Source: Candidatus Planktophila sp. (GTDB taxonomy: Bacteria > Actinomycetota > Actinomycetes > Nanopelagicales > Nanopelagicaceae). From it: a stretch of DNA of 34,312 nucleotides. This document shows positions 19,367 to 25,970 of the stretch, in pieces. The number at the start of each line of letters is the position of its first letter. Within the stretch, counting starts at the first letter, position 1. Where the stretch lies: contig SHUV01000007.1 of NCBI GenBank assembly GCA_009694515.1, positions 1 through 34,312 of the forward strand, read 5' to 3'. A program made the translations under genes and the position numbers. A model generated the notes under the pieces. That model searched no databases, was not told the origin of the DNA, and was given only the letters and a program-made list of their open reading frames with translations.

Positions 19367-21009
19367 AAGATTCAATACTGGCAGCACTTGATGCTGATCA
19401 AAGGGCGGTAGCACTTGCTACACGTGGTCCGGTTTGTGTCATTGCAGGTGCCGGCACCGGAAAAACTCGCGCAATCACACATCGCATTGCATATGCAGCA
19501 GCGATTGGCACGATGGATCCGCAGAAAGTATTGGCGCTGACATTTACTGCAAAAGCTGCTGGTGAAATGCGTGCCCGGCTTCGCACCCTTGGTGTGCCGA
19601 CCGTTGCCGCTCGCACTATTCACTCTGCCGCCCTTAAGCAACTGCTCTACTTTTGGCCCTCAGTATTTGGTGGGCGCACACCAGATCTAATGACAACTAA
19701 GACCGGATTTCTCACCGAAGCAATTAATCGTGCGGGTCTAAGTGGCTCGCTGCGCGCTACCAACCGCGAACTGATGCGCGATATTGCCGCTGAGATTGAA
19801 TGGGCAAAGGTTTCTCAAGTGGGCCCCACTGATTACATCGATGAAGTAAGTAAGCGAATGCAGAAACCTCGCCTTACGCCAGAGCAGATGGTTCAGGTCT
19901 ATACCGCCTATGAATCAATTAAAAAGCAAGAGCTTGCTATTGATTTCGAAGATGTACTTCTCTTATGTTCTGCGATGTTAGAAGAAGAGCGCGATGTGCG
20001 CGAGCGGGTGCAAGACCAATATCGGTATTTCACTATCGATGAGTACCAAGATATTTCTCCCATTCAACAGCGACTGATTAATGCCTGGCTTGGAACGCGC
20101 ACAGATATCTGTGTCGTTGGTGACCCCGCCCAAACTATTTACTCATTTGCTGGCGCCACCCCGGTATTTCTCAATACATTTACCCAACGTTTTCCGGAGG
20201 CCGAAGTTATCCGTTTAACAACTGGATACCGCTCCACTCCGGAAATCACATTTGCCGCCAATGCGCTCTTGCGTCACGGAACTATGGGTCAAGAACTTGT
20301 TGCCTTTAATAGCCATGGCTCAAAACCAATTGTCACCGGCTATGGCGATGAGCCGGCCGAGATTGGCGGAGTCATGGCGCAAATCAACGCCCTGTTGGTA
20401 AATGGCACCCAGCCACAAGAGGTTGCAATCTTGGCTAGAACTAATGCACAACTTAAGGGTGCAGAGAAAGCGATGCTGGCGCAGAAGATTCCATATCAAG
20501 TGCGCAATACGGAAAGATTCTTTGAACGCCGGGAAGTGCGTGATTTCCTCAAGCAAGTGCGGCAAGCATCGGTTATTCCGGCTGAAGGCCAAGGATGGAT
20601 CGATGAACTACGCTCCCTTGCCCAGCCCTACTTAACGGGTGAAGCAATTGATGGAATTGCTGCGCTGCTGCATTTAGCGCGCGAACTTGATGACGATGAT
20701 AATTTTTCTCCGAAAACTCTGCGCACATATCTGCGTGAAGTAGAAGATCGAGTGCAACAGAACAATCCACCGACCATGCCGGTTGTCACACTGGCAACGC
20801 TGCATGCAGCTAAAGGCCTGGAATGGGAACGGGTATTTCTGATCGGTGCATCAGATGGCCAATTGCCGTTGACCAATAGTTCTGGGCAGGCTGTGATTGA
20901 GGAGGAGCGGAGGCTCTTTTATGTGGGGATCACCCGCGCCAAGGCTGATCTGCATATCTCCTATCGGGGTAATCCAAGCCAATTCCTGCGTGAATCAGGC
21001 CTTATTTAA
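19357..21009 (+). CDS. uvrD2: ATP-dependent DNA helicase UvrD2, short form
   Basis: A superfamily 1A 3'-5' DNA helicase of 550 residues. Motifs run in order: GAGTGKTRAI (Walker A, 31-37), FTAKAAGEMRARL, FTIDEYQDISPIQQ (II), GDPAQTIYSFAGA (III), TGYRSTPEI (IV), TLHAAKGLEWERVFLIG (V) and RLFYVGITRAKADLH (VI). It ends with NPSQFLRESGLI shortly after motif VI. Mycobacterial UvrD2 is about 700 residues and continues into a tetracysteine segment and an HRDC domain; both are missing. The position after nudC (10-nt overlap) and before whiB7 supports the UvrD2 assignment over UvrD1/PcrA. Confidence 0.88.
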   Translation: MAIEDSILAALDADQRAVALATRGPVCVIAGAGTGKTRAITHRIAYAAAIGTMDPQKVLALTFTAKAAGEMRARLRTLGVPTVAARTIHSAALKQLLYFWPSVFGGRTPDLMTTKTGFLTEAINRAGLSGSLRATNRELMRDIAAEIEWAKVSQVGPTDYIDEVSKRMQKPRLTPEQMVQVYTAYESIKKQELAIDFEDVLLLCSAMLEEERDVRERVQDQYRYFTIDEYQDISPIQQRLINAWLGTRTDICVVGDPAQTIYSFAGATPVFLNTFTQRFPEAEVIRLTTGYRSTPEITFAANALLRHGTMGQELVAFNSHGSKPIVTGYGDEPAEIGGVMAQINALLVNGTQPQEVAILARTNAQLKGAEKAMLAQKIPYQVRNTERFFERREVRDFLKQVRQASVIPAEGQGWIDELRSLAQPYLTGEAIDGIAALLHLARELDDDDNFSPKTLRTYLREVEDRVQQNNPPTMPVVTLATLHAAKGLEWERVFLIGASDGQLPLTNSSGQAVIEEERRLFYVGITRAKADLHISYRGNPSQFLRESGLI

Positions 21010-21044
21010 TTGCCTTGCACGAAGCAATGACCATCTTGTACCCT
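21003..21044 (+). promoter_or_regulatory. Predicted whiB7 promoter with an AT tract next to the -35
   Basis: A -35-like TTGCAC (21015-21020) and a -10 TACCCT (21039-21044) are separated by 18 nt. An uninterrupted A/T run (21003-21011, TATTTAATT) ends three bases before the -35. In mycobacteria WhiB7 activates its own and other promoters by binding SigA while its AT-hook contacts an AT-rich stretch just upstream of the -35. This layout fits that mode. The AT run overlaps the last uvrD2 codons. The transcript should start near 21051. Confidence 0.5.
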
Positions 21045-21095
21045 TTATCTTCGGGTTCTAGAACTACTAGAGCACGAAGTAGAAAGGGATTGAAA

Positions 21096-21287
21096 ATGGC
21101 AAATGTCATGACTTCAATCATCACAGCAGGCGCATGCGCTGCTGCACCTTCTGCTGCTTTCACACATTCAACAGCTTCTGCAACCAAGCGTTCACATAAG
21201 CGAACAGTTTGGCCCACAGCTACAAAGTCAGCGTTTTACGCCAACTTTTATGCAGTGGATGAGGCTACTGGAGTACTAATCGGATAA
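21096..21287 (+). CDS. whiB7 leader peptide ORF (63 codons)
   Basis: A small ORF between uvrD2 and whiB7, starting MANVMTSIITAGACAAAPSA and ending FYAVDEATGVLIG. The ATG has AAAGGGA upstream at 6 nt. An in-frame start at 21015 would overlap the predicted promoter, so 21096 is preferred. The peptide has an Ala/Ser/Thr-rich first half and a basic middle (TKRSHKRTVWP), with no recognised domain. Its importance is probably its translation: codons 54-57 contain the segment that can pair with the 5' arm of the terminator that follows, and the stop lies 17 nt before that terminator. I infer a regulatory leader ORF, as described upstream of mycobacterial whiB7 and streptomycete wblC. A stand-alone function is possible but has no support here. 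Confidence 0.65.
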   Translation: MANVMTSIITAGACAAAPSAAFTHSTASATKRSHKRTVWPTATKSAFYANFYAVDEATGVLIG

Positions 21288-21345
21288 AACCGAACAGTCC
21301 CACAAGGGCCTCAAATCCACTCGATGGATTTGGAGGTCCTTTTTT
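21254..21345 (+). promoter_or_regulatory. Predicted terminator/antiterminator attenuator of whiB7
   Basis: The terminator is a stem of about 16 bp (21305-21319 with 21325-21340; one bulged G, one G-U pair; loop CTCGA) followed by six Ts (21340-21345). The antiterminator arm is 21254-21265 (A then GTGGAT and GAGGC), inside the leader ORF. It can pair with 21308-21321 over about 12 bp with a 2-nt bulge, which would use up most of the terminator's 5' arm. The two structures are mutually exclusive. A ribosome moving through codons 54-63 would mask the arm and let the terminator form; a ribosome stalled earlier would leave it free and allow read-through into whiB7. Confidence 0.65.
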
Positions 21346-21406
21346 ATTACCTAAACAAAAAATATAGGAGCAAGACCAACTAGAGAGATAACAGGGGGTG
21401 AGAACG

Positions 21407-21778
21407 ATGAGCGTTCTCTTCAGCGAACTACAGGTACCAGGCTGGGCAGAGACCGGCGAAAAGATTGGCCTAAACGATGTGACATTCACATACGACAACG
21501 CCAAGGCTTTCACCCTGCCATGCCATCAAGCTGACCCTGAACTCTTCTACTCAGAGACAGATCAGGGAATTGCAGAGGCGAAGGCGCTCTGTGGCACATG
21601 TCCGGTGCGCAACAAGTGTCTGGATGGCGCGCTCTCACGCCAAGAACCGTGCGGGGTGTGGGGTGGTCAGCTCATCGAAGATGGCGTGATCATTGAACGT
21701 AAGCGTCGGGCAGGTAGACCACCACGTCAGGTGATTGCAGCTGCGCGCATTGTTCAGAACGAGCAAGCACTGGCTTAA
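21407..21778 (+). CDS. whiB7: WhiB7-type redox-sensitive transcription factor
   Basis: A WhiB-family [4Fe-4S] regulator of 123 residues. Cluster Cys residues are Cys39, 62, 65 and 71 (C-x22-C-x2-C-x5-C), followed by the family turn GVWGG (83-87), which in WhiB7 contributes to contact with the primary sigma factor. After it comes a basic AT-hook-like tail, RKRRAGRPPRQ (98-108), which distinguishes WhiB7 from other WhiB proteins. In mycobacteria WhiB7 induces intrinsic antibiotic resistance genes. The start is the ATG at 21407, with GGGGGTGAG 4 nt upstream; a GTG at 21398 is less likely. The gene follows the leader ORF and terminator and sits after uvrD2, as in mycobacteria. It converges with the next gene (19 nt apart). 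Confidence 0.9.
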   Translation: MSVLFSELQVPGWAETGEKIGLNDVTFTYDNAKAFTLPCHQADPELFYSETDQGIAEAKALCGTCPVRNKCLDGALSRQEPCGVWGGQLIEDGVIIERKRRAGRPPRQVIAAARIVQNEQALA

Positions 21779-21797: not shown

Positions 21798-22919
21798 TTA
21801 AAAGGCACACCCACAGAGTGGGTGGCGAGGGATCGCCACCACCTGTGGGTAGGCAAGTAATTGATAGTCAATTGAAATGGCTATTCCGAGCAGCGCTGAG
21901 AAGTCTGCCGCCGTATCTGTCTGATTAGCGACAGTGGTGGCATCACAAAATTGCACAATCAATGAAGCCGCCATCGCCGCAATAAAATGAGCGGCAATTT
22001 GTGGGTATTCCTTTGCAACATCTGGCGTGAAATCAAGTAGATCTACCACACCACGTTGTTCCCTGGATGAAAGCTCATAGCAACGCAGGCAGGGACTCAC
22101 TCCCGGAATTACGAGTGGACCAATCAGTGCGCTGTCTGCGCGTGGAGAAGGAATGATGAGAAATTTCTCGCCAGAGCTCATCCAGAGTGAAAGAGTTTCG
22201 GGATTGATATCACCGCAATGAATACGTAAATCAGGAGTTGATGCCTCGTCTAGATAATTCTCTTCGCGATCAAGTGGAAATAACGCAAGTTCTCTTCTCA
22301 TCATCTCGCAATGGCTCTTAAAGGCCGTCCCAGTATCTGATTGCCGGAATGTCGAAAGTGCCATATCGATATCACCAATCAGCGGATATCGCCCACGAGA
22401 AGTCGGGGTAAAGCGCACCTGGGAAAACCCACTTGCGAGTAGAAGTGAATAGAGAAGTGTGGCAACTCGATTGTTTCCAGAAATTTCGCAGAGGTAATTT
22501 TGCCGGGAACTTAATGTTTCAACGCCGCCATCGATAACACCAGCAATCCAATTAGTTTGGTTTAACTCAGGTGCGCACCGGCGTTGTAGTTGTTGGACTC
22601 CAGCATCAACTGCGGGTCTACTATTTTTCTTCACTCGGTTATCTAACTTCGAGACAAAACGTTGGGAAACTCTGAGCACACCTTGCTTGTGGTTGATTAA
22701 TTCTTCTACTTCGAGTTGAGCTAAGAGCGCGCTCACTGTTGCACTAAGTACGTTGGGTGTTTGCAGGATCTCTTTCTCAGACTTTCCGGCAACGAGTGCC
22801 AGAGCGATCACCTTCTCTTCCGGGGTGTAGATCCGAATGACTCGCTTAAGAGTTCCTAGGAAGTATTGGCCGGGTGTAGTGCTCTGACTTAGCGCAACAC
22901 CGCCCTTGAGTTCTCTCAT
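21798..22919 (-). CDS. TOMM cyclodehydratase-like / ThiF-family protein
   Basis: A 373-residue protein resembling the E1/ThiF-like part of azoline-forming cyclodehydratases and of actinobacterial TOMM-leader-binding proteins. An N-terminal winged-helix-like part (YTPEEKVIALALVAGKSEKE, LLAQLEVEELINH) resembles a peptide-clamp region. The middle has GNNRVATLLYSLLLASGFSQ, a Rossmann-like segment. The C-terminal part has GPLVIPGVSPCLRCYELSSR and the terminal HPLCGCAF; CxxC plus CxC is the structural zinc site of this family. No YcaO partner, dehydrogenase or precursor peptide lies nearby. I prefer the ATG at 22919 (MRELKGGVALS) to a GTG at 22937. A similar gene (Rv3196 type) occurs at this place in mycobacteria. 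Function unknown; no catalytic role is claimed. Confidence 0.7.
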   Translation of the reverse strand: MRELKGGVALSQSTTPGQYFLGTLKRVIRIYTPEEKVIALALVAGKSEKEILQTPNVLSATVSALLAQLEVEELINHKQGVLRVSQRFVSKLDNRVKKNSRPAVDAGVQQLQRRCAPELNQTNWIAGVIDGGVETLSSRQNYLCEISGNNRVATLLYSLLLASGFSQVRFTPTSRGRYPLIGDIDMALSTFRQSDTGTAFKSHCEMMRRELALFPLDREENYLDEASTPDLRIHCGDINPETLSLWMSSGEKFLIIPSPRADSALIGPLVIPGVSPCLRCYELSSREQRGVVDLLDFTPDVAKEYPQIAAHFIAAMAASLIVQFCDATTVANQTDTAADFSALLGIAISIDYQLLAYPQVVAIPRHPLCGCAF

Positions 22920-25661: not shown

Positions 25662-25970
25662 ATGATCCTTCTTGACTCTAGCTCTGCAATAGTCGCGGGC
25701 AGTAGCACTTTTGCCGCCTTAATTTGGTGGGTAGTACCGATAAGTGCACTCATCGGAGGAATTGGCTACGTCCTGTGGATCTCAAAATTTAAAGGAAAAT
25801 TCGAATCCGAAACAACGAGATCGGTAGGAAACTTCCAGCGTTTTCAAGACTCTTTTCGCACCGAAACTCAAGCACCGGTAACCCAGGTGCCAGAGGCCCA
25901 AGTGCCAGAGGAACAAGTGCCAGAGGAACAAGTGCCAGAGGAACAAGTGCCAGAACATCGAGATAACTAG
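25662..25970 (+). CDS. Small membrane protein with PEEQV repeats
   Basis: I do not recognise a family. The 102 residues contain a membrane segment (FAALIWWVVPISALIGGIGYVLWI, about 19-42), a basic stretch (SKFKGKFES), a region that may be helical (RSVGNFQRFQDSFRTE) and an acidic tail of five-residue repeats (VPEAQ, then VPEEQ three times). Topology is probably a single-pass membrane protein with a cytosolic tail, by the positive-inside rule. It is followed 10 nt later by the Lon-like protease gene and appears to be the first gene of that operon, so it may be a partner or substrate of the protease; this is inference. Confidence 0.65.
   Translation: MILLDSSSAIVAGSSTFAALIWWVVPISALIGGIGYVLWISKFKGKFESETTRSVGNFQRFQDSFRTETQAPVTQVPEAQVPEEQVPEEQVPEEQVPEHRDN
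25888..25962 (+). repeat. 15-bp in-frame tandem repeat
   Basis: GTGCCAGAGGAACAA is repeated perfectly at 25903, 25918 and 25933. A variant copy starts at 25888 and a partial copy at 25948. The unit is in frame and encodes VPEEQ. Copy number is likely to vary between strains by slippage. Confidence 0.9.

Follow-up and report, generated by a model that had tools for sequence, protein, structure and literature searches.

The window analysed here, 34,312 nucleotides (nt) of Candidatus Planktophila sp. (contig SHUV01000007.1 of assembly GCA_009694515.1), contains the gene whiB7, and the gap between uvrD2, which ends at 21009, and whiB7 holds, in order, a promoter, a leader open reading frame (ORF) and a terminator (Table 1). 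The host is an acI actinobacterium, and the WhiB7 of the window and the WhiB7 of Candidatus Planktophila versatilis MMS-IA-79 are identical. It matches the Mycobacterium tuberculosis WhiB7 of structure 7kif with an E value of 7.7e-23 in an alignment that spans the AT hook GRP, and three further WhiB proteins are encoded elsewhere in the same genome. We hold it very probable that the region upstream of whiB7 contains the core of a transcription attenuator.

Table 1. Features of the uvrD2-whiB7 interval and of whiB7, with positions in the window.
Feature	Position	Strand	Remarks
AT-rich run, candidate WhiB7 autoregulation box	21002-21011	+	directly 5' of the -35 element; overlaps the uvrD2 stop codon
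-35 element TTGCAC	21015-21020	+	from sequence and family comparison
-10 element TACCCT	21039-21044	+	18-nt spacer from -35; start site predicted near 21051
Ribosome-binding site AAGGGA	21084-21089	+	6 nt upstream of the leader ATG
Leader ORF (upstream ORF, uORF)	21096-21287	+	63 codons, ATG start, 15 Ala, C-terminal ...KSAFYANFYAVDEATGVLIG; homologous uORFs in 116 family leaders
F-Y-A-N-F-Y-A, codons 47-53, proposed sensing gate	21234-21254	+	FYAxFYA conservation
Antiterminator 5' strand	21254-21265	+	inside the leader ORF
Stop-codon hairpin TCGG-ATAAAA-CCGA	21280-21293	+	21280-21283 with 21290-21293; stop codon 21285-21287 in the loop
Intrinsic terminator	21306-21345	+	stem 21306-21319 with 21325-21339; six T 21340-21345
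Antiterminator 3' strand	21308-21321	+	overlaps the terminator 5' arm and loop
whiB7	21407-21778	+	123 amino acids; Pfam Whib match

Promoter and leader reading frame

The interval was compared with two sets of relatives. The family set began with 138 regions upstream of WhiB7 genes (six others were too short); four without a terminator or uORF pick were dropped (L028, L032, L108 and L143), and the remainder represents 116 distinct Nanopelagicaceae leaders. The second set, from the class outside the family, consists of the 55 of 66 loci in which the rule used found both a uORF and a terminator; among candidate frames this rule selects the one whose antiterminator is best, which biases the antiterminator figures for the class in its favour.

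A promoter had been mentioned in the preliminary description of this DNA, although without coordinates. A sigma-70 consensus scan of the window found none, and the promoter emerged only through comparison, which revealed conserved -35 and -10 elements. The pattern W4-N2-5-TTG[CA]-N17-21-TANNNT is present in 113 of the 114 relatives with enough upstream DNA, where shuffled sequences predict 2.7, and 77 of the 114 carry the hexamer TACCCT, against an expected 7.2. A first impression that TACCCT is the promoter element throughout the class was rejected, since only 5 of the 55 leaders outside the family contain it (3.2 expected); TACCCT itself is therefore a family feature. In mycobacteria, the AT-rich run 5' of the -35 element is where WhiB7 acts with sigma-A at its own promoter, and the AT box here is a putative WhiB7 binding site. 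With an AT box upstream of the -35 element in 113/114 relatives, the predicted promoter is of the autoregulatory type. A strict promoter pattern, used to look for other WhiB7 targets, has two matches in the window's own genome, one at whiB7 and the other inside an ORF on the opposite strand.

Might the hairpin before whiB7 simply terminate uvrD2, with the ORF a product of chance? In 126 of 132 family loci, UvrD2 is encoded directly upstream of whiB7 and in the same orientation, but the conserved promoter stands between uvrD2 and the ORF in 113 of 114, and the ORF, the antiterminator strand and the terminator spacing are all conserved. We consider this explanation almost certainly wrong. The adjacency of the two genes was dropped as a class-wide feature, being found in 6 of 66 class loci at the sensitivity used.

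The 63-codon leader ORF of the preliminary description can be read directly from the DNA and, with homologues in 116 distinct leaders, stands as described. It is predicted to be translated: 93 of 116 leaders have a 3-nt Shine-Dalgarno core before the start codon chosen (a count for which no control was run), and the ratio of nonsynonymous to synonymous differences per site (pN/pS) is below 1 in all five segments compared. The acI leaders are about 50 to 65 codons long and have a low-complexity body of Ala, Thr and Ser that varies in length. A small protein working in trans would account for the conserved peptide motif and C-terminus, but the leader ORF has no match in Pfam or NCBIfam, its low-complexity body is variable, and its conservation is linked to the antiterminator and the stop hairpin; a role in trans is thus very unlikely. 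The stretch 21096-21235 of the ORF and its relatives are C-rich and G-poor (family means of 0.31 for C and 0.19 for G; 0.24 and 0.25 in the genes of the window). This composition resembles that of Rho-binding RNA, and untranslated leader RNA might attract Rho.

Competing folds before whiB7

The terminator had been placed at 21305-21345, 62 nt before whiB7; its limits are now 21306 and 21345, with 61 nt (21346-21406) left before the ATG at 21407. Its stem has 14 pairs with a bulged G at 21333 and the loop CTCGA, and its folding energy of -20.4 kcal/mol (z -4.4) was equalled by 0 of 200 shuffles. Across the family, the leader stop codon precedes the terminator stem by a median of 19 nt (interquartile 19-21). 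We aligned 60 of the 116 leaders and built an RNA model, R1, from them. RNAalifold calls the terminator in this alignment, and 8 of 13 stem pairs have changes on both sides, which is the compensatory variation that the preliminary description had proposed to look for in the stem. For the stop hairpin and terminator together, 90.3% of cells are paired, and 0 of 500 shuffles reach that percentage or the covariation score.

In the alternative fold, 21254-21265 pairs with 21315-21321 and 21308-21312 to give 12 pairs and an AA bulge. Terminator and antiterminator share 21308-21319 and are mutually exclusive, in agreement with the pairing originally proposed. Folding of 21250-21324, in which the terminator 3' arm is absent, gives the antiterminator helix and a small inner hairpin (-28.8 kcal/mol, z -4.0, 0/200 shuffles as good); as drawn, the antiterminator with the stop hairpin (-23.0) and the terminator with the stop hairpin (-23.6) are nearly equal in energy. 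Synonymous-codon shuffling, which keeps the leader peptide constant, served as the control for both the antiterminator and the stop hairpin. The antiterminator was more stable than the mean of its synonymous shuffles in all 114 leaders entered in this test (L135 and L136 were excluded), 83 of them at a level of 0.05 or below, with a mean of -23.6 against -15.9 kcal/mol. The native partner strand also beat the mean of partners swapped between leaders in 107 of 114. Leader ORF, terminator and antiterminator are thus each supported by the family comparison, and the earlier interpretation of the region holds up, with refinements on the masking and on the signal that are given below. Of the 116 leaders, 62 have a Thr/Ser-Trp codon pair that is base-paired with the stretch preceding the terminator, and in every one of these 62 the C or T at a third codon position is matched by G or A (29 xCCTGG facing G, and 33 xYTTGG or similar facing A). 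A phylogenetic sign test of this covariation was abandoned because there were too few independent changes. The subclade that includes the window has lost the Trp codon, and there the helix relies on its inner part. The antiterminator 5' strand also folds on itself in the minimum-free-energy structure of the full leader (21253-21258 with 21265-21270, CAGTGG/CTACTG), possibly as an anti-antiterminator.

A third hairpin encloses the leader stop codon, with an energy in the window of -4.1 kcal/mol (1/200 shuffles as good). At least four of its pairs can form in 114 of 116 family leaders, compared with 48.8 when the spacer is permuted and 94.5 when synonymous codons are shuffled, and at least five in 87 of 116 (15.8 and 62.2, respectively). 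Outside the family, 42 of the 55 class leaders have at least five pairs, against 15.0 with permuted spacer and 22.0 with synonymous codons. Three of the five pairs have changes on both sides among the 60 aligned leaders. From the 3' end of this hairpin to the terminator stem the median distance is 10 nt (interquartile 9-11, n=114), and pause hairpins act on RNA polymerase from about this distance; our guess is that the stop hairpin could be such a polymerase pause hairpin. The class leaders, among them L165, L178 and L221, often end in ...WSPPV-stop with CCGGTC/GACCGG around the stop codon. Pro-Pro before the stop might slow termination there or might be a by-product of the hairpin.

The aromatic and alanine codons

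Three predicted elements go beyond the preliminary description: the promoter of autoregulatory type, the stop-codon hairpin, and a cluster of aromatic and alanine codons that appears to be specific to acI. The sequence FYAxFYA lies before the antiterminator strand in 49 of 116 leaders. Its pN/pS is 0.10 (1176 pairs), whereas the four segments around it have values of 0.64, 0.60, 0.55 and 0.55, and synonymous sites within it vary freely (pS 0.62). Other acI genera do not have the exact peptide, but at codons -15 to -10 their aromatic fractions still come to 0.36 and 0.25, against a background of 0.07 in the proteins of the window and 0.07-0.08 in the 55 class leaders outside the family.

To place these codons relative to the folds, we modelled the ribosome with a footprint reaching about 15 nt ahead of the peptidyl (P) site and scored the antiterminator on RNA ending at 21324. 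The modelled antiterminator probability is close to 0.9 for P-site positions as far as codon 48 (0.93) and then falls to 0.74, 0.42, 0.31 and 0 with the P site at codons 49 to 52, so that the boundary lies inside FYANFYA. The masking of 21254-21265 by translation, proposed earlier for a ribosome reaching the end of the leader, is refined by the model: it would occur at codons 49-52, before the end is reached. Family-wide, the aromatic peak is within about 3 codons of the modelled boundary, also when the FYAxFYA leaders are left out. Whether the FYA cluster is a functional gate is, in our judgement, an even question. The conserved codons at the predicted cut-off suggest that the supply of aminoacyl-transfer RNA (tRNA) or pausing on the nascent peptide may matter as much as antibiotics.

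What, then, might the cluster do? The same attenuator could use FYAxFYA as a nascent-chain pause that, as long as cells are unstressed, halts the ribosome on the antiterminator strand and keeps whiB7 off, with no readout of tRNA charging. The exact F-Y-A-x-F-Y-A order, the pN/pS of 0.10 and the variable synonymous sites fit a peptide better than codons, and a stall a few codons past the motif would put the ribosome on 21254-21265. However, in other acI genera the aromatic peak is retained but the sequence is not, which fits codons or general chemistry better, and we regard a nascent-chain pause as a genuine possibility but one to be doubted. It is somewhat unlikely that the attenuator is simply that of Streptomyces and Mycobacterium, responding only to general slowing of ribosomes by drugs, and that the aromatic cluster plays no regulatory part itself. 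Control by drugs and by amino-acid starvation is reported for whiB7/wblC, and class relatives, which lack the aromatic peak, are still reported to work in this way, but drug slowing alone leaves unexplained both the pN/pS of 0.10 in the motif and the aromatic content of codons -18 to -10 (fractions of 0.28-0.37 against 0.07).

From sequence and modelling together, we consider it likely that this is a ribosome-controlled attenuator with the FYA gate as a working part. RNA would start near 21051 at the predicted WhiB7-type promoter, and a ribosome would trail RNA polymerase through the leader ORF. If it passed codons 47-53 in time, its leading edge would cover 21254-21265, no antiterminator would form, and transcription would end at about 21345. 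If it were held at or before FYANFYA, either by a ribosome-targeting drug or by a shortage of charged tRNA, 21254-21265 would be free to pair with 21308-21321 as the latter emerged, with the stop hairpin folded inside, and polymerase would read through into whiB7, the product of which is likely to activate its own promoter. The antibiotic response of this leader is expected by analogy with Mycobacterium and Streptomyces.

Several observations weigh against this reading. When the RNA is folded to 21345 at equilibrium, the terminator wins at nearly every ribosome position (terminator 0.82-0.94), the exception being a ribosome at codon 44, with the antiterminator at 0.65. Since the terminator wins at equilibrium, the switch would have to be kinetic, and the earlier-made antiterminator would need to outlast the passage of the polymerase. 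The antiterminator variation that the preliminary description had proposed to look for has a limited independent basis: all 114 leaders beat the shuffle mean and the C/T to G/A correspondence is complete, but on the WhiB7 tree the latter needs only 2 changes and so represents two events. The antiterminator is weaker outside the family, with 39 of 55 leaders below the shuffle mean and 18 at 0.05 or below, and several class leaders, including L188, L190 and L192, are worse than their shuffles. The stop hairpin exceeds its synonymous-codon control only modestly (87 against 62.2 leaders with at least five pairs), and RNAalifold alone does not call it in the 60 aligned leaders. Aromatic residues at the start of the helix are partly to be expected, as U/A-rich codons end a helix. 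Finally, pheA and tyrA are each present in 25 of 26 genomes of the genus, so that aromatic starvation is not obviously frequent; on the same counts, the idea that aromatic sensing arose from lost aromatic synthesis was rejected.

A broader proposal can be built on the ribosome-controlled attenuator, although we think it improbable as a whole. The acI lineage would have rebuilt an ancient whiB7 attenuator, with an aromatic/alanine gate in which FYAxFYA, under strong purifying selection, marks the place where a ribosome advance of one codon flips the fold from antiterminator to terminator, and with a stop hairpin that pauses polymerase until the ribosome arrives. In such a case the whiB7 of these most abundant freshwater actinobacteria would respond mainly to how much Phe-, Tyr- and Ala-tRNA is available, and hence to oligotrophic starvation, with drugs as a second trigger.

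Occurrence and comparison with known attenuators

The covariance model R1, which comprises the stop hairpin and the terminator, matches 119 of the 121 genomes of the order, five of them weakly (best E values of 4e-5 to 4e-4), and the two that it misses (G193 and G008) are also without a WhiB7 hit at 1e-15. The match at the whiB7 leader of the window's own genome has an E value of 3.5e-14, with a near-identical relative included in the model; of eight genomes that had not contributed to the model, all have an R1 match about 47-83 nt 5' of WhiB7 and in its orientation. A second, weak match in the window's own genome (G000, contig C4:43515-43573; 26.5 bits, E 8.8e-4) may be an ordinary terminator. 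Searched with Rfam 15 at the gathering score, the window contains no attenuator family and only a tRNA. Elsewhere in the window, two inverted repeats lie at 21798-21860 between whiB7 and the convergent downstream gene, one of them terminator-like on the minus strand, and a 102-amino-acid ORF at 25662-25970 has a C-terminal short tandem repeat with several copies of VPEEQ.

Studies of whiB7 treat it as a regulator of drug resistance in pathogens and in antibiotic producers. The presence of the predicted switch in nearly every genome of a streamlined, free-living freshwater order argues that sensing slowed translation is an old and general task of whiB7. The acI leaders can be viewed as a natural experiment, in which antiterminator, terminator and stop hairpin have been kept and the class and acI have different sensing segments; swaps can therefore test which portion of the leader sets the signal.

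The acI leader is reminiscent of the amino-acid attenuators of the trp/phe type in having putative control codons just before the antiterminator strand, a decision that would depend on ribosome position, and a stop-codon hairpin that is a possible pause hairpin. Unlike them, it would control the stress regulator whiB7 and no amino-acid pathway, and it mixes aromatic with alanine codons. Arrest-peptide leaders such as those of erm genes are similar in that ribosomes could be stalled at a fixed position by a conserved segment of the peptide; the acI output would differ in being transcription read-through, and the likeness of FYAxFYA to them is one of general design.

The closest relatives are the whiB7/wblC leaders. 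A uORF attenuator of whiB7/wblC in Mycobacterium and Streptomyces was reportedly described by Lee, Lee and Roe in 2022; Dinan et al. in 2014 are a further source for it, and Poulton in 2024 reportedly dealt with alanine starvation. According to published work, actinobacterial whiB7 is typically preceded by a uORF and an attenuating terminator, stalled ribosomes allow an antiterminator to form from uORF and terminator sequence, and amino-acid starvation acts as well (PMC10727445, PMC13393426, PMC11550727, PMC13236596, PMC4128351, PMC12421871). Our search of a literature collection for Planktophila with whiB7 and for Nanopelagicales with WhiB7 found no acI case and no such gate. Compared with the Mycobacterium and Streptomyces systems as described there, the acI leader is alike in its promoter, uORF, terminator and overlapping uORF-derived antiterminator before whiB7, and differs in its streamlined freshwater host and in an aromatic/alanine cluster at the modelled decision point, which was not seen in the 55 class leaders. 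Judged by its sequence, it has several of the marks of a whiB7/wblC attenuator: a WhiB7 gene, a terminator, an exclusive antiterminator, and a promoter of its own with an AT box. The kind of switch is thus a known one, the whiB7/wblC uORF attenuator, now in a streamlined freshwater lineage.

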